The notes: generated by a model not told the origin, from the sequence alone. Shown: positions 54,910 to 63,106, numbered from the stretch's first letter. The stretch: DNA of 64,000 nucleotides from Halobacteriales archaeon QS_6_71_20 (GCA_003020945.1 PXRU01000017.1:1-64000); one strand, 5' to 3'. Numbers and translations are program-made.

Positions 54910-55023
54910 TCGCCTGTGAACACCTCGCCGTTCACGAGACCGGGGGTCTCGTGGGCTCGACGATCGCGGGGCGATTTTCGAACGCCGGCTATCGAGGCGT
55001 TTGCTCGCCGCGCTCACGCCTCG
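54910..55023 (+). repeat. Multi-hairpin interspersed repeat, copy A
   Basis: Three stem-loops in a row: CACGAGACC-GGG-GGTCTCGTG (54933-54953, perfect), a GATCGC/GCGATT-type stem ending in GCGATTTTCGAACGCC, and CGAGGCG ... CGCCTCG. The first two thirds match copy B at 62765-62866 (minus strand) nearly base for base, and the last third matches copy C at 55942-55985. Confidence 0.85.
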
Positions 55024-55102
55024 CTATCAGTAGCCGGCGGCGATACGACCGTGTCCGGAACGGAGCTGGGATCGGCACCCCGACCGAAACGACTACGCTC
55101 GT

Positions 55103-55119
55103 TCCCACTCAATGTGGGA
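55103..55119. promoter_or_regulatory. Probable VapB operator
   Basis: TCCCAC-TCAAT-GTGGGA is a perfect 6-bp inverted repeat with a 5-base spacer, two bases before the vapB ATG. VapB/AbrB antitoxins bind such palindromes in their own promoter. With a leaderless start, binding here would cover the transcription start. Confidence 0.55.
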
Positions 55120-55121
55120 GT

Positions 55122-55403
55122 ATGACGAAGGTCGATTCGAAGGGGCGGATCGTTCTCCCACAGGAGGTGCGCGAGCGACTCGGCATCACCCCCGGTACGG
55201 AAGTGGACGTCCACGAGGAAGACGGACGGGCAGTCGTCGAACCCGAGGACGATCCCGACGACGTTCTCGGACGTATGGAGCGGCTCGTCGAGGAAACGTC
55301 GGAACGAGCGGAGACGACCCCTCCTGCCGAGGGAGCCGACCCGATCGCTCGAAAGCACAGAGACGCCGTCCGAAGCGGGGCGGAGAACGACAGCAGTGAG
55401 TGA
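55122..55403 (+). CDS. vapB: AbrB-type antitoxin
   Basis: Ninety-three residues. MTKVDSKGRIVLPQEVRERL then GITPGTEVDVHEEDGRAVVE is a canonical SpoVT/AbrB DNA-binding hairpin. The acidic tail (DDPDDVLGRMERLVEETSER and onward) would neutralise the toxin. ATG at 55122 directly follows an inverted repeat. It overlaps the toxin gene by eight bases. The second AbrB-PIN pair in this window; the two antitoxins are only distantly alike. Confidence 0.9.
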   Translation: MTKVDSKGRIVLPQEVRERLGITPGTEVDVHEEDGRAVVEPEDDPDDVLGRMERLVEETSERAETTPPAEGADPIARKHRDAVRSGAENDSSE

Positions 55404-55863
55404 CGCCGGCGGCCCGTATCTCTTCGACGTCGGGGTGATAGCCCTCGCACACACGACCGCCCCGGTGCGCGATTCCGCGCTCTCGTACGTCCGGGATGCC
55501 GTCACCGGCGACATCGACGCCGTAGTCCCGTATCCGGCGCTGTTCGGCGCACACGCCGTTATGACCACGTACTACGGGTACTCGAACGCAGACGCGTCCC
55601 GGCTTCTCCGGAACTTCATGAACGCGAAACGGATCCACTGGCACGACAGGACGCCCGAGGACGTGGTTTCGGGCGGGTTCTCTCGGGCGAGCGACGCGAA
55701 CGTCGGTGGATGGGACGGGTACTACGCTCAGGTGGCGATCGAGGAAGGGGTGAACACCGTACTGACGATCGACGACGACCTCGACCGATTCGACGCGTTC
55801 GAAACCGAGATCGTTCTCTCCCCCGACGAGTTCGGCGAACTGAACAGGTTTCTCGGAAGCTGA
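55396..55863 (+). CDS. vapC: PIN-domain toxin
   Basis: A 155-residue PIN protein. YLFDVGVIALAHTTAPVRDS near residue 8 has the first acidic site. VGGWDGYYAQVAIEEGVNTV near 107 and LTIDDDLDRFDAFETEIV near 127 hold the later Asp residues. The internal Glu normally found in the middle is less clear (SYVRDAVTGDIDAVVPYPAL), so one catalytic acid may be displaced. GTG start overlaps vapB. G+C is lower than in the neighbouring kinase gene. Confidence 0.85.
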   Translation: MSDAGGPYLFDVGVIALAHTTAPVRDSALSYVRDAVTGDIDAVVPYPALFGAHAVMTTYYGYSNADASRLLRNFMNAKRIHWHDRTPEDVVSGGFSRASDANVGGWDGYYAQVAIEEGVNTVLTIDDDLDRFDAFETEIVLSPDEFGELNRFLGS

Positions 55864-55941
55864 TCCCGACTCTCGGTCCGGACAGCGGACGCCAGCAGGG
55901 ACTCCTGCTACTCGGTGGCGGCTCGGCCCGAAGACCTCCCT

Positions 55942-55985
55942 GCCGGCTATCGAGGCGTTCGCTCGCTGCGCTCGCTCACGCCTCG
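55942..55985 (+). repeat. Multi-hairpin repeat, partial copy C
   Basis: GCCGGCTATCGAGGCGTTCG, CTCGCTGCGCTCGCTCACG and CCTCG match the right third of copy A (54984-55023). The stop codon and the last residues (SEA) of the minus-strand histidine kinase lie inside it, so the repeat supplies the end of that protein. Confidence 0.75.
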
Positions 55986-58735
55986 CTCGTCTCGAACTCG
56001 AAGCGCGCGCCCCCCTCGGCGCTCTCGGCCAGCGTCACCGACCAGCCGTGCGCCTCGGCGATGCGGCGGACGATCGCGAGCCCGAAGCCGGTGCCGTTCT
56101 CCGCGGTGGAGACGCCGACGTCGAACACCTCCTCGCGGTCCGCCTCCGGGATCCCCGGGCCGTCGTCGGAGACGGCGAAGCCGTCGGGGGTGGCCCCGAC
56201 CCGAACCGCGGTCGACTCGCCGCTGTGCTCGACCGCGTTGCGGAAGAGGTTCTCCAGGAGCTCCCTCAGCCGGTCGGGGTCGGCGTCGAGCGTGGCCCCC
56301 TCGACCGCGTCGAGCGTCGCGTCGTCGGTCTCGACGATCGCCCACGCCTCCCGTGCGGCGTCGGCGAGGTCGACCCGCTCCGTCTCGCCGACGACCCGGC
56401 CGTCCCGGGCGAGCCTGAGCAGGTCGTCGATCATCTCGCGCATCCGATCGACCGCGTCGGCGACGGTGTCGAGGTGGTCCAGGTCCCCCGTCTCGCGCGC
56501 GAGGTCCAGGTAGCCGTCCGCGACCGACAGCGGGTTCCGCAGGTCGTGGGAGACGACGCTCGCGAACTCGTCGAGCCGCTCGTTCTGCCGGCGGAGCGCG
56601 CGCTCGCGCTCGCGGCGCTCCGTGATGTCCGAGTAGATCGCGTAGCCGCCGACGTTCTCCTCGCCGACCTCCAGGGGGACGACGTACATCAGGAAGTCGC
56701 GGACGCCGTCGACAGTCTCGCGGCGACACTCCCGGCGCAGGCTCTCGCCGGCGGCGAGGCGGTCGTTGAACTCCGCGGCCATGGACCGCTCGTCCGGGGG
56801 GACGATGTACTCGTCGATCGACTCGCCGACGATCTCCTCGTCGAAGCCGAACGTCTCCTCGAACGCGGAGTTGACCGCCCGCACGACCGGGACGCCGTCG
56901 ACCAGCTCGAAGGAGACGGCCGCGTCGGGGACGTTCTCGAACAGCGCGGACAGGCGGTCACGCTGCGCGCGGAGGTCGCCCTGGGTGCGCAGCCGCTCCA
57001 GCGAGACGGCGACGTGGGCCATCAGCAGTTCCGCGTTCCGCAGGTCGTCGTGGTCGAACGCGGCCCGCTCGGTCGCGACGGCCTGGAACACCCCGAGATC
57101 GCCGACGGGGACCGAGATCGCCGAGCGGTACTCCGACCGGACCGGCTCGGCGTCGCGTTCCTCCGTCAGATCGGCGACGAGCGTCGACTCGCCCGTCCGG
57201 TACGTCCGCCCGGTGATCCCCTCGTCGAGGTCCATCGGGCGGGTGCCCTCCGGCTCGGTGCCCTCGCTGTCCACGACGGGGACGAGCATGTCGCCGCGCC
57301 GCAGCGAGAGCGTGGAGTTGTCGAACGAGAGCACGTCCTCGGCCGCGCGGATCGACCGCTCGATGAGCTCCCCCTCCGTGTCGGCGGCCGCCAGGTCCGC
57401 GGCGGCGACGTGGAGCCGCTCGGTGACCCGTCTGGCCTCCCGGAGCGCCGTCTCCGACAGGATCCGCTGGCGCGTCACCGTCGCGTACGAGACGAGCAGG
57501 TCGGCGAACTCCGGGTCGCGCTCGTCGAACGCGTTCGGCTCGTCCACGACCGCCCGGAACACGGCGTCGCCGGCGAACGGCACCGAGATGAGCGACCGCG
57601 ACTCGCCGTCGTGGGACTCGGCCTCGTCGCTGTCGGCGACGTCGTCGACCACGATCGAGCGGCCGTCCGCGTGCGACCGCTCCATCGCGCCGAACCCCCG
57701 CGTGAGGCTGTCCGGCAGCTCCGGGTCCGTCGTCGCGCGCAGGTGGAAGCCGTCGCCGTCGGCGACGTACACCGCGGTGCGATCGAACGACAGCACCCGG
57801 TCGGATATCTCGACGGTCCGCTCGAACAGCTCGTCGTCGTCCTCGGCGTCGACGAGCCGCGGCGCCGCCTCGTGGAGCTCCGCCATCACCCGCTCGCGCC
57901 GCGTCAGGTCGGCCTGTGCGCGGAGTCGCTCGTACGACTGGCCGACGTGCATCGCGAGCAGCTCCGCCAGCTCCCGGTCGGTGTCGTCGAAGGCGTGCGA
58001 CCGCCGGGAGACGGCTTGGAGGACGGCGTCGTCACCGAACGGCACCGTGATGCTCGAGCCGGTCGCCTCGGAGTTGTCGAACTCCTCGGGATCGAGGTCC
58101 GTGACGTGGACCGTCTCGTCGCGCTCGTGTGCTCGCCCGACCAGCGTCCCCTCGATCGGGACACGCCGGGGGAGCCAGTCGGTCGAGCGCTCCAGCGCCA
58201 CGAACTCCGAACCCTCCCGCACGCCGACCGCGCAGTGGTCGAACGACAGCACCCGGTCCGCGACCGCGACCGCCCGCTCGGACAGCTCCGCCACGCTCTC
58301 GGCGGCCGCGATCCGGGCGGCGGCCTCGTGGAGCCGGGTGACCCGCTCGCGGGCCGCCCGGAGCTGTCGACGCGTCGTACCGTCGTGCGCCCGGTCGATC
58401 TCGACCGCGAGCCGCCCGGCGACCGACCCCCGCTCGACGTAGCCGTCGACGAGGTCGTCGTCCGGCTCGCGGTCGGCGTACGCGACGACCGGAACGGCCC
58501 CGGCCGACAGCCGCTCGCGCAGCGACCCCGGCAGCGTCGGGTCGCCCACCAGCACCACCGCGTCCGGCCGCTCCCCGCGGTCGAACGCCGCCGCCAGTGC
58601 CGCCGGCTCGCCGGCCTCCGTGACGCCTCCGTCGACGGCCTCCACGAGCGCCCCCGTCAGCTCCGTGGCCTCCCGCGGCGCGTCGTCCGTGAGAAGGAAG
58701 ACGAACCGCGACGGCTCGGCGACGGGGTCCGCCAT
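55976..58735 (-). CDS. Multi-sensor histidine kinase (receiver-like, three GAF, PAS, HisKA, HATPase)
   Basis: A soluble 919-residue sensor kinase. Residues 1-115 look like a receiver fold ([40 protein letters not shown]). Three GAF domains follow, seen as repeated [22 protein letters not shown] and [11 protein letters not shown] segments. Next are a PAS domain ([20 protein letters not shown]), the phospho-acceptor [20 protein letters not shown] and the ATPase N and G boxes ([53 protein letters not shown]). No membrane helix. The signal could be redox, light or a small ligand. Its last codons lie in a repeat element. Confidence 0.93.
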
Positions 58736-58838
58736 TGATTACACCGTGTTGGCGCTTTTCTATTTAAGAATAACGGGAGGGACGGCCGCTCGGGCCGGCC
58801 CGGAACCCTTTTGCACGGCGACGGGACAGGAGACTGTA
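58736..58838. promoter_or_regulatory. Divergent promoter region of the kinase gene and alaS
   Basis: TATTTAAGAATAAC at 58762-58775 is the only A+T-rich block in the 103-base gap and can act as a TATA element for both strands. On the minus strand TTAAATA lies about 30 bases from the kinase ATG, and the plus-strand CCTTTTGC (58807-58814) is 25-30 bases before alaS. Confidence 0.5.
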
Positions 58839-61607
58839 ATGAGCGATCTCACTGCGGAGTACCGCCTCGACTACTTCGAGGAGGAGGGGTTCTCCCGGCG
58901 GGAGTGTCCCTCCTGTGGGGACCACTTCTGGACCCGCGACGCGGAGCGGGAGCTGTGCGGCGAGCCGCCCTGCGAGGACTACTCGTTCGTCGGCGAGCCG
59001 GGGTTCGACGGGGCGTACACGCTCGAGGAGATGCGGGAGGCGTTCCTCTCGTACTTCGAGGCGAACGGCCACGAGCGGATCGAGCCGTACCCGGTCGCGG
59101 CGAACCGCTGGCGCGACGACGTGCTGCTCACGCAGGCGTCGATCTACGACTTCCAGCCGCTGGTCACCTCCGGGAAGACGCCGCCGCCGGCGAACCCGCT
59201 GACGGTCAGCCAGCCGTGCATCCGGATGCAGGACATCGACAACGTGGGGAAGACGGGGCGACACACGATGGCGTTCGAGATGATGGCCCACCACGCGTTC
59301 AACGCACGCGAGGAGGTCGGCGACGAGTACGCCTACTCCGGCGAGGTGTACTGGAAGGACGAGACCGTCCGCCTGTGTGACGGGCTGTTCGAGGAGCTGG
59401 GGGCGAACCTGGAGGAGATCACCTACATCGAGGACCCGTGGGTCGGCGGCGGCAACGCCGGCCCCGCGATCGAGGTCATCTACAGGGGCGCCGAGCTGGC
59501 GACGCTGGTGTTCATGTCGCTGGAGCGGGACCCCGACGGCGAGTACGAGCTGAAGGACGGCAACACCTACTCCGAGATGGACACGTACGTCGTGGACACG
59601 GGGTACGGGCTGGAGCGGTGGACCTGGATGAGCCAGGGCACCCCGACCGTCTACGAGGCGATCTACCCGGACGCCATCGAGTTCCTGAAGGACAACGCCG
59701 GGGTCGACCTCGGCGAGGAGGAGGCGGAGCTGGTGCGGCGCGCGTCCACCCTTGCGGGCCGTCTCGACATCGACGAGGTCGAGGACGTCGAGGCCGCCCG
59801 CGACACCATCGCCGACAGGCTCGACGTCGACGCCGCGGAGCTGACGGCGCTGCTGGAGCCGCTGGAGGACATCTACGCCATCGCCGACCACTGCCGGACG
59901 CTGGCGTACATGTTCGGCGACGAGATCGTCCCCTCGAACGTCGGGACCGGCTACCTCGCGCGGATGGTGCTGCGGCGGACGAAGCGGCTCGTCGACGAGG
60001 TCGGCGTCGACGCGCCGCTGGACGAGTTGGTCGACATGCAGGCCGAGCGGCTCGGCTACGAGAACCGCGACACGATCCGCGACATGGTGCGCACGGAGGT
60101 CGAGCAGTACCGCGAGACCCTGGAGCGGGGCGGCCGAAAGGTGGAGACGCTGGCCGACGAGTACGCCGGCACCGGCGACCCGATCCCGGTCGAGGAGCTC
60201 ATCGAGCTGTACGACTCCCACGGGATACAGCCGGACATGGTCGAGGAGATCGCCGCCGAGCGCGGCGCGGCCGTCGAGGTGCCCGACGACTTCTACGGGC
60301 TGGTCGCCTCCCGCCACGACACCGCGGGGGAGATCGACGACGCGGGGGCGGCCGACGAGCCGCTCGCGGACCTCCCGGAGACCGAGCGCCTCTACTACGA
60401 GGCCCAGGACCGCACCGAGTTCGAGGCGGTCGTCCTCGACGTGTTCGAGCGCGAGGAGGGGTACGACGTCGTGCTCGACCAGACCATGTTCTACCCCGAG
60501 GGCGGCGGCCAGCCGGCCGACCGGGGAACGCTCTCGACGGACGACACGACCGTCGAGGTGACCGACGTCCAACTGGAGGGGGACGTGGTGTTGCACCGGA
60601 CGGACGACGATCCCGGGAAAGGGGAGTTCGTCACCGGGCAGATCGACGGCCAGCGTCGCCGCCGGCTGATGCGCCACCACACGGCGACCCACATCGTCGG
60701 CCACGCCGCCCGGCAGGTGCTCGGCGAGCACGTCCGCCAGGCGGGCGCCCGGAAGGGGCCGGAGTCGTCCCGCCTGGACGTGGCCCACTACGACCGCGTG
60801 ACGCGCGAGCAGGCCACGGAGATCGAGCGCGTCGCCAACGCGATGGTCCGCCGTAACCTCCCGGTGAGACAGGAGTGGCCCGACCGCCACGACGCAGAGT
60901 CCGAGCACGGCTTCGACCTCTACCAGGGCGGGATCCCCCCGGGCGAGCAGATCCGACTGATCCGCGTGGGCGACGACGTGCAGGCGTGCGGCGGCACCCA
61001 CGTCTCCCGGACGGGCGACCTCGGCACGATCAAGCTGCTGAACACCGAGCCCGTCCAGGACGGCGTCGAGCGACTCGTGTTCGCCGCCGGCGACGCGGCG
61101 CTCGACGCCACCCACCGCACCGAGGACGCGCTGTACGACGCCGCCGACGTGCTCAGCGTCGATCCCCAGGAGGTGCCCGAGACCGCCGAGCGCTTCTTCA
61201 CCGAGTGGAAGCAGCGGGGAAAGACGATCGACCGACTGAAGGAGGAGCTGGCGGAGCTGCGCGCGGGCGCCGGCGGCGAGGAGGTCGCGGTCGGCGACGC
61301 GACCGCGGTCGTCCAGCGGATGGACGCCGACACCGACGAGCTCCGTGCGACCGCGAACGCCCACGTCGACGACGGCCGCATCGCCGTGCTCGGCTCCGGC
61401 GCGGGCGGCGCCGCCACGTTCGTCGTCGGCGTCCCCGACGGCGTCGGCGTCAACGCCGGCGAGGTCGTCGGCGAGCTCGCGGGCCGTGTCGGCGGCGGCG
61501 GCGGCGGCCCCCCGGACTTCGCGCAGGGCGGCGGCCCCGACGTGGACGCGCTCGATGACGCGCTCGCGGCGGCGCCCGACGTGCTCCGACGGACGTCGGA
61601 GGCCTGA
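58839..61607 (+). CDS. alaS: Alanyl-tRNA synthetase
   Basis: The 922-residue enzyme is of archaeal length. N-terminal [20 protein letters not shown] is the archaeal zinc-type leader. Class II motifs follow ([40 protein letters not shown], and [15 protein letters not shown]). The editing domain has [15 protein letters not shown] then [17 protein letters not shown] (HxxxH), and [18 protein letters not shown] with the zinc Cys. The C-Ala oligomerisation domain ends with a glycine-rich stretch ([15 protein letters not shown]). All functional motifs are intact. ATG at 58839. Confidence 0.97.
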
Positions 61608-61677
61608 GCGGCGCCGCGGCCCGCCGACGTCGTCACGGGACCGAAACCTCCTCCCCGCCGGCACCCCACGCGGAGGT

Positions 61678-62766
61678 ATGGACCCGCGCATCCGCGAACA
61701 CGCCGAGACCATCGTCGAGCACTCGATCGAGTTGGAGGCCGGCGACAATCTCGTCATCCAGCTGCCTAGCGAGGCGGAGGACCTGGCGGTCGCGCTCCAC
61801 GAGTACGCCGGCGACGTCGGCGCGAACCCGGTGTACCTCAACAACTCCGAGCGGGCCGAGCGCGCGTACCTCCGCGCCCGCGGGGACGACTTCGAGCTGC
61901 CCGACCACGAGCTGGCGCTGTACGAGGAGGCCGACGCGTTCGTCATCGCCCGCGGCGGCGGCAACGTCTCCGAGAAGTCCGACATCGATCCGGAGACGAC
62001 CGCCGACCACAACCGCGCGCGCCGCCCCGTCCAACGGACCCGGCTTTCGAAGACGTGGTGTCTCACGCAGTTCCCGACCGAGGGGCGCGCCCAGCTGGCC
62101 GGCATGAGCACCGAGGAGTACGAGAACTTCGTGTACGACGCGGTGAGCCTCGACTGGGAGGCACAACACGAGTTCCAACAGCAGCTCGTGGAGCGGCTGA
62201 ACGACGCCGAGGAGGTGCGGATCCGCTCGGGCGAGGAGACGGACGTGACGATGTCGATCGCCGGCAACACGGCGCTCAACGACGACGGGAGGGCGAACCT
62301 CCCCGGCGGCGAGGTGTTCACCGCGCCGGTGAGAGACAGCGTCGAGGGCGAGGTCCACTTCGACCTCCCGCTGTACCGCCAGGGGCGCGAGATCGAGGAC
62401 GTGCGCCTCACCTTCGAGGAGGGGCGCGTCGTCGACTTCTCCGCCGAACGCAACGAGGCGGTGCTTTCGGGCGTGTTCGACACCGACGCGAGCGCCCGCT
62501 ACCTCGGCGAGCTCGGCATCGGCATGAACCGCGCCATCGACCGCTTCAGCTACAACATGCTGTTCGACGAGAAGATGGGCGACACCGTCCACATGGCCGT
62601 CGGGTCGGCGTACCCCGAGACGGTCGGCGAGGGCAACGAGGTCAACGAGTCCGCCGAGCACGTCGACATGATCGTGGACATGAGCGAGGACTCCGTCATC
62701 GAACTGGACGGCGAGGTCGTCCAGCGGGACGGAACGTTCATCTTCGAGGACCGCGAGGCCGAGTGA
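61678..62766 (+). CDS. M29-family aminopeptidase
   Basis: The 362-residue thermophilic-type aminopeptidase starts REHAETIVEHSIELEAGDNL. Metal-ligand regions are seen in GGEVFTAPVRDSVEGEVHFD near 219 (E), LSGVFDTDASARYLGELGIG near 265 (E), NMLFDEKMGDTVHMAVGSAY near 296 (E/H) and AEHVDMIVDMSEDSVIELDG at the end (H, D). It releases N-terminal residues from peptides in the cytoplasm. It follows alaS by 70 bases and may share its transcript. The last codons run into a repeat element. Confidence 0.92.
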   Translation: MDPRIREHAETIVEHSIELEAGDNLVIQLPSEAEDLAVALHEYAGDVGANPVYLNNSERAERAYLRARGDDFELPDHELALYEEADAFVIARGGGNVSEKSDIDPETTADHNRARRPVQRTRLSKTWCLTQFPTEGRAQLAGMSTEEYENFVYDAVSLDWEAQHEFQQQLVERLNDAEEVRIRSGEETDVTMSIAGNTALNDDGRANLPGGEVFTAPVRDSVEGEVHFDLPLYRQGREIEDVRLTFEEGRVVDFSAERNEAVLSGVFDTDASARYLGELGIGMNRAIDRFSYNMLFDEKMGDTVHMAVGSAYPETVGEGNEVNESAEHVDMIVDMSEDSVIELDGEVVQRDGTFIFEDREAE

Positions 62767-62866
62767 GCGAAGCGAACGAGGCCTCGAATCAACGGCGTTC
62801 GAAAATCGCCGCGCGATTTTCGAGCTCACGAGACCAGCGGTCTCGTGAACGGCGAGGTCTCCGGGC
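62765..62866 (-). repeat. Multi-hairpin interspersed repeat, copy B
   Basis: Reverse-oriented copy of 54910-55023. Two perfect stem-loops: CACGAGACC-AGC-GGTCTCGTG (62827-62847) and CGAAAATCGC-CGC-GCGATTTTCG (62800-62822), the second better preserved than in copy A. Then a GAGGC/GCCTC arm near the aminopeptidase stop. Confidence 0.85.
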
Positions 62867-63106
62867 CGAGCCGCCTACAGAACTGCCGAGGCGAGCGCGG
62901 CGATCCGGGGCCTCGCCGTCGCACCGCCGAACACGCGTCCCGCGGCGACCCGTCCGCGACGACCGGACCAGGACGGCGTCGAACGCCGGGCAGGGGTGTC
63001 GCCCGTCGGACGCCACTCGATAAGCTATTCGTAACGGACGTGCATGTACAAATACCTTTCTCTCGCCCCCTCGGTCCCGGGATTTATGAGTGTGTGGTCG
63101 CGTCAC
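62867..63106. other. Intergenic region downstream of copy B
   Basis: Very G+C-rich to about 63015, then A+T-richer (CGATAAGCTATTCGTAAC, 63017-63034; ACAAATACC, 63049-63057). GATTTATG at 63081-63088 is the likely TATA box of the next gene. No gene is supported here. Confidence 0.45.

Follow-up and report, generated by a model that had tools for sequence, protein, structure and literature searches.

Haloarchaea are known to carry small palindromic mobile repeats, the closest described being the palindrome-associated transposable elements (PATEs) and the small mobile repeats (SMRs) of Haloquadratum (PMC3119063). SMRs (80-110 bp) are tiny non-coding mobile repeats that leave no target duplication, favour mobile elements and palindromes, and have no known mover. 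The units that we describe here share these traits but are about half as long, contain two triloop hairpins and occur order-wide, and they are set apart from SMRs by the published description of the latter rather than by sequence. PATEs are likewise haloarchaeal and palindromic and leave no target duplication, but their ends are those of IS605-type transposons, whereas the units are not the ends of the IS605-type loci that we examined and insert inside tnpB. In bacteria, REP/BIME/REPIN sequences, with their TnpA-REP (RAYT), are short paired inverted hairpins with a foot tetranucleotide, mostly intergenic, clustered or single, and free of long duplications; the units differ from these in being restricted to haloarchaea, 54-59 bp long, ended by GTT..AC, bordered by C and G and found also in coding sequences, with no RAYT detected in five genomes. 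Rickettsia palindromic elements (RPEs) can sit in frame in protein genes and so provide a precedent for in-frame insertion, but they are bacterial and about 150 bp long (PMC10969869), whereas the units are single hairpin pairs and the genes that they hit encode transposases. Integron attC sites, which are recombined as folded single strands and occur as tandem units with a common core, were rejected as relatives: only the tandem arrangement fits, and the terminal boxes of the units are inside out relative to RYYYAAC..GTTRRRY, so that we treat the likeness as resemblance only. The literature on dispersed palindromic repeats in haloarchaea, with subscription papers and supplements outside the scope of the search, contained nothing matching. 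The repeat described below is a real and widespread hairpin repeat with a REPIN-, SMR- or RPE-like way of working, but with established membership in none of these classes.

The window, a stretch of 64,000 nt (G000:C17:1-64000) from the 2.65-Mb draft genome of a haloarchaeon, contains two copies, A and B, which are 91% identical over 66 bp and lie in inverted orientation to each other. Both hold a 54-bp unit with two hairpins and variable triloops, which follows the pattern GTT-(CACGAGACC nnn GGTCTCGTG)-AGC-(TCGAAAATCGC nnn GCGATTTTCGA)-AC at 54930-54983 (+) and 62797-62850 (-). Copy A (54930..54983, + strand; model R2 62.4 bits, E 2e-12; DNA-fold z-score -4.25, or -4.3 when rounded) is laid out as GTT, H1 (54933-54953), GGC, H2 (54957-54981, with two imperfect pairs) and AC, flanked by C at 54929 and G at 54984. 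Copy B (62797..62850, - strand; R2 77.1 bits, E 3.3e-16; z-score -7.3) reads GTTCACGAGACC-GCT-GGTCTCGTGAGCTCGAAAATCGC-GCG-GCGATTTTCGAAC, with H1 at 62827-62847 and H2 at 62799-62823. A first-pass annotation of this DNA had given A and B two shared stem-loops; stem one (CACGAGACC nnn GGTCTCGTG) is indeed perfect in both, but the second is perfect (CGAAAATCGC/GCGATTTTCG) in B only and imperfect in A, where CGACGATCGC faces GCGATTTTCG. Chance does not account for this pattern: when up to 3 mismatches are allowed, it has an expectation of 0.16 per window and reached two matches in 1 of 100 shuffles, and the perfect double hairpin, present once in the window (copy B), was found in 0 of 30 Markov shuffles.

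The same annotation had described a three-copy element. The repeat stands in A and B, but its copy C (about 55917..55985, - strand) has neither hairpin and is not a third copy, because the element there is a host without the two-hairpin unit. The repeat is two nested things, the 54-bp unit and a host gene-end element, the latter made of a hairpin round the stop codon followed by a second hairpin. At copy C, an empty host, one hairpin arm holds the last codons and stop codon (55976-55978) of a histidine kinase gene (55976..58735, - strand), whose GAF, PAS, HisKA and HATPase_c domains in Pfam confirm the kinase context proposed for it, and the second hairpin is GGCTCGG..CCT. A and C, which were said to share a third arm, match at 87% over 46 nt (query positions 85-126 of A), but this match belongs to the flanking gene-end element only and not to the unit; it corresponds to a host-element remnant adjoining copy A (54984..55038, - strand) with a GCCGGCTATCGAGGCG..CGCCTCG..TAGCCGGC hairpin. 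Copy A had also been placed before a toxin-antitoxin operon, of which the MazE/AbrB-type antitoxin gene downstream (55122..55403, + strand; PF04014, E 7.6e-14) was recovered with Pfam, but no Pfam family matched the presumed toxin.

Copy B lies, as proposed, at the 3' end of a peptidase gene, which encodes an M29 aminopeptidase (61678..62766, + strand; PF02073, E 5e-67), and the flank seen in copy C also surrounds the unit here. The stop-codon hairpin of this host element (62755..62785, + strand), GAGGCC-GAG-TGA-gcgaagcgaacga-GGCCTC, has its 5' arm within the peptidase coding sequence, and the second hairpin (62851..62872, + strand), GGC(GA)GG..CC(GA)GCC, follows directly on ACGGC in congeners where the unit is absent. 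The stop-codon arms covary in several orthologs at this locus (GAGGCC/GGCCTC, GAGGAC/GTCCTC, GAGGTC/GACCTC and GAGGGC/GCCCTC); the support from a permutation test is modest (P about 0.01). Stop-codon hairpins as a rule for all genes were rejected: 9 of 33 genes in the window have one, compared to 10.4 expected from swapped downstream sequences. Since there is no general enrichment, the host is a particular element and not a rule.

We compared the orthologous peptidase gene in ten congeners and found that in six of them (G009, G004, G007, G010, G002 and G005) the host is present and the unit absent. The empty sites align as ..ACGGC^GGCGAGG.. or ..ACGGC^GGCGCGG.. with ..ACGGC[54 bp]GGCGAGG.. in the window. 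By parsimony, we infer that copy B is a unit inserted between two host hairpins at the peptidase end, with loss of the unit in several congeners as a formal possibility. Empty sites were also found in other kinds of sequence. A tnpB gene in genome G027 carries a 56-bp insert where three relatives are empty (TTCGCC GCCAGC), and a single site in an IS6-family transposase gene holds one unit in Natrononativus, two in tandem in Haloferax mediterranei and Hfx larsenii, and none in Hfx gibbonsii and Hfx alexandrinus; the empty sites of this gene came from plasmid matches. A structured Halorubrum repeat, which is very numerous (up to 93 pattern matches per genome), has a 55-bp insert at GGC^GAC, compared to 24 fully read copies that are empty. 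A TnpB gene of the window's own genome holds a 57-bp unit in frame, which adds 19 residues beside the RuvC-I motif; this is the one clear in-frame case, while the inserts in the IS6-family transposase gene and the G027 tnpB are frame-shifting.

Inserts at empty sites measure 54-56 bp, or 113 bp for one tandem pair, and in the aligned cases each consists of one unit or two in tandem, and the sharing or duplication of bases that recurs at every site is limited to CG. No target duplication beyond CG was seen in the aligned insertions, and 161 of 171 copies have C as their left neighbour and G as their right. Together, these comparisons show insertion of units at precise positions within pre-existing sequences, namely the gene-end element, the Halorubrum repeat and two kinds of transposon gene, an IS605-type tnpB and an IS6-family transposase gene.

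The further stem-keeping copies that the first-pass annotation called for were readily found. The window's genome has 6 strong matches above 62 bits (62-78), a further match that scores 50 bits and several of greater divergence, and others occur in nearly all congeners. Order-wide, the R2 model matched 249 of 293 genomes and 78 of 87 genera, a count that includes weak matches, with up to 19 candidates scored per genome; the weak matches in distant genomes (E 1e-3 to 1e-5) may be generic hairpins. A pattern scan of genome_contigs (84,980 species) returned at least 111 stretches, with haloarchaeal titles throughout among the matches listed. A phage or plasmid origin was rejected: the pattern is absent from viral_contigs and a single class-b query of 60 nt matched no phage, while plasmid matches do exist.

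Units of this family are about 54-59 bp long, start with GTT, end with AC (the ends can also be written GTTCACGAGAnC..AC) and contain two consecutive triloop hairpins. All 162 exact first hairpins have an adjoining second hairpin, which is eroded in 14, and 63 aligned cores present the inverted hairpin pair in many dispersed copies. H1 is nearly fixed, whereas the H2 arms vary by group (TCGAAAATCGC, TCACAAATCGC, TCACGAGACGC, ATCAGAACGC, TCAGAAATC and others), and a looser search revealed further arm families that share the GTT..AC ends. Selection on the structure had been suggested from the window alone, and selection on the stems, or their upkeep, is supported by a gapless alignment of 29 units, in which each of the 638 pair cells holds a standard pair and two-sided (compensatory) changes occur in 10 of 22 pairs, compared to 5.6 in shuffles; four of the five measures were never matched by any shuffle. 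The loops vary freely, with 34 different loop pairs among 47 units that share identical stems, and GNA or its complement TNC makes up 53% of triloops in each hairpin. GNA triloops closed by C-G are unusually stable in DNA.

These stems could also be kept for an RNA function, with the units acting as structured elements in 3' UTRs, such as terminators or processing or stability signals. Compensatory changes would suit this explanation, transcription termination at hairpins is possible in Haloferax volcanii (PMC7237163), and 28 of 40 class a/b copies lie just past a stop codon, in sense orientation (gene end within 200 nt on the host side, compared to 12% of random positions). This is where the host lies, but the enrichment could instead reflect a function. 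The RNA explanation is at odds with units in transposase coding sequences, in frame or disrupting, with copy A lying between divergently read genes and with orthologous gene ends that lack the unit. Nor is there a G.U bias: G.T and A.C mispairs are balanced, at 27 versus 35 in H2 and 2 versus 4 in H1, and thus give no hint of an RNA-strand preference. A known RNA family was rejected as well, the curated Rfam covariance models at gathering threshold having matched only a tRNA in the window and 17 loci. We hold an RNA function of the unit to be improbable, and find that it fits the host element better, where internal GA/GA pairs set against GC/GC suit RNA. The freedom and bias of the loops, the upkeep of the stems and the mispair balance favour, but do not prove, that the unit works as DNA hairpins.

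The first-pass annotation had recognized in the repeat the BIME/REP layout of bacteria and had asked for a linked TnpA-REP-like Y1 protein. As an archaeal REP/BIME, the hairpin pairs would be mobilized by a REP-type Y1 HUH transposase (RAYT/TnpA-REP). The layout itself is borne out in part, as there are two inverted hairpins with a tetranucleotide foot (GTTC..GAAC), many copies, a mainly extragenic position, often at gene ends, and no long target duplication, but units also lie inside tnpB and the IS6-family transposase gene, against a strictly extragenic location. The linked protein did not materialize: PF01797 (Y1_Tnp) has no match in the window's genome (G000, 94% complete) or in four other unit-rich genomes (G005, G015, G022 and G025, each 99% complete). 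In a published survey, IS200 is the sole TnpA-Y1 subclass reported from Archaea, with no RAYT subclass (PMC6006769). A unit is near 3 of 30 Y1 loci, and in two of these it occupies the same conserved place within an IS605-type element. We consider mobilization by such a transposase very unlikely.

Equally unlikely, in our view, is that the units are fragments or "terminal-only" forms of IS605-type transposons, that is, PATEs mobilized by an IS200-type TnpA. The Haloquadratum PATEs do offer short elements, down to 52 bp, with near-terminal palindromes and no target duplication (PMC3119063), but when we searched the flanks of 30 TnpB and 30 Y1 loci, the unit was absent in 56 of 60 and internal or variable in position in the other 4. 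Furthermore, units sit within tnpB genes whose relatives lack them; the separation from PATEs rests on the description of the latter. An identity as IS605 omegaRNA or right end was rejected on similar grounds, with 29 of 30 TnpB loci lacking the hairpin and units inserting into tnpB.

That the units are ordinary MITEs with GTTCAC..GTGAAC inverted ends, for which a DDE transposase acting in trans makes a 2-bp CG duplication, is an unlikely explanation too, though less remote than the preceding ones. CG on both sides is compatible with a 2-bp duplication, and the class a/b ends, which include the copies in the window, are perfect inverted repeats (GTTCAC..GTGAAC). Perfect inverted ends are confined to class a/b; the commonest end type, GTTC..TGAC (80 of 171), is not an inverted repeat, nor are most others. 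As for the traits of SMRs, the units lack duplications beyond CG and insert into IS genes, with perfect inverted ends in class a/b only. A search for an autonomous partner, with H1 and H2 split round a gene, found none in 162 cases, and a DDE MITE does not need a two-hairpin body.

Altogether, we think it likely that the repeat in the window is one of a family of very small mobile units in haloarchaea, which are non-coding, about 54-59 bp long and made of two triloop hairpins with GTT..AC ends, and the units and their relatives in most haloarchaeal genomes appear, from comparison of their sites, to be mobile. Non-autonomous hairpin elements is the best label on present reading. A unit would move in single-stranded, folded form, or at the least with its hairpins extruded, and a trans-acting enzyme would join it into CG, usually within GGCG; we prefer joining of folded single-stranded DNA at CG because the body consists of hairpins, the loops are biased and no longer duplication is present. 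The units are bordered by C and G, share or duplicate no more than the dinucleotide CG, and can lie head to tail in tandem; at least one sits in frame in a coding sequence. Copy B would have given the peptidase 3' UTR two more hairpins, any effect on mRNA 3' ends being probably secondary, and copy A is probably an older insertion, now partly decayed. More tentatively, and with less confidence than in the family itself, we suggest an order-wide class of 54-59 bp hairpins moved as folded DNA by a non-Y1 enzyme at a CG core, in which triloops would be renewed (loops drawn from GNA and its complement) while stems are kept, and which would nest in structured repeats to build up hairpin arrays at gene ends and between genes.

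If the units are mobile, Archaea would own a counterpart of the bacterial REPINs, minus the bacterial enzyme, and the natural insertions with exact empty sites would provide a route to the enzyme and its target rule. Identical stems combined with variable loops are unusual, and they make a DNA-hairpin mechanism directly testable. The unit family would also explain many of the repeated hairpins at haloarchaeal gene ends, which could otherwise be mistaken for regulatory RNAs.

The two-hairpin units, putative mobile elements of 54-59 bp, insert at GGC^GAC (the caret marks the insertion point) within a structured repeat of Halorubrum. This repeat spans ~190 bp, is built as GGGACTCAAAGGGGCAGCCG .. 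GACGYAAGCACCG .. CGGCTGGGGCTTTGGAGG (loci L316, L319, L326, L331, and L336, around position 1501), and has a long, covarying closing stem. Its insertion-site pattern has up to 93 matches per genome, and the repeat has no Rfam family. At four loci (L204, L249, L291, and L337), the interior of the repeat lies inverted with respect to the outer flanks, with CCAAAGCCCCAGCC.. replacing CTCAAAGGGGCAGCC.., that is, a flip-flop around the closing stem.

Another hairpin unit, the second kind, has different arms, GTTCGAGAGAGCnnnGCTCTCTCG..(G)AAC. It is found nested in Halorubrum repeats (L191, L203, L216, L244, L279, and L351) and has one copy in the window's genome.

Separately, two gene ends in the window form hairpins in which the last codons of the gene serve as the 5' arm and the stop codon lies in the loop, one at the M29 peptidase stop (62755-62785, plus strand) and the other at the histidine-kinase stop (55951-55985, minus strand). 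The arms of the stop-codon hairpin co-vary among some peptidase orthologs.

Two-hairpin units also occur in or beside transposon genes. In the window's own genome, a unit on another contig (L138, G000:C4:65322-65378) encodes an in-frame insert of 19 residues in TnpB, directly ahead of the RuvC-I motif. In several genera, a unit adjoins IS605-type tnpA/tnpB genes at a conserved site, TACAGC^GCCGC (L127, L149, L156, L233, and L296). Finally, a haloarchaeon of genus g5 (G014) carries many near-identical related units (L342, L344, L346, L348, L350, L352, and L354), all with the same flanking sequence, which is apparently the 3' part of tnpB. These copies in a single flank suggest that the unit spread together with an IS element.
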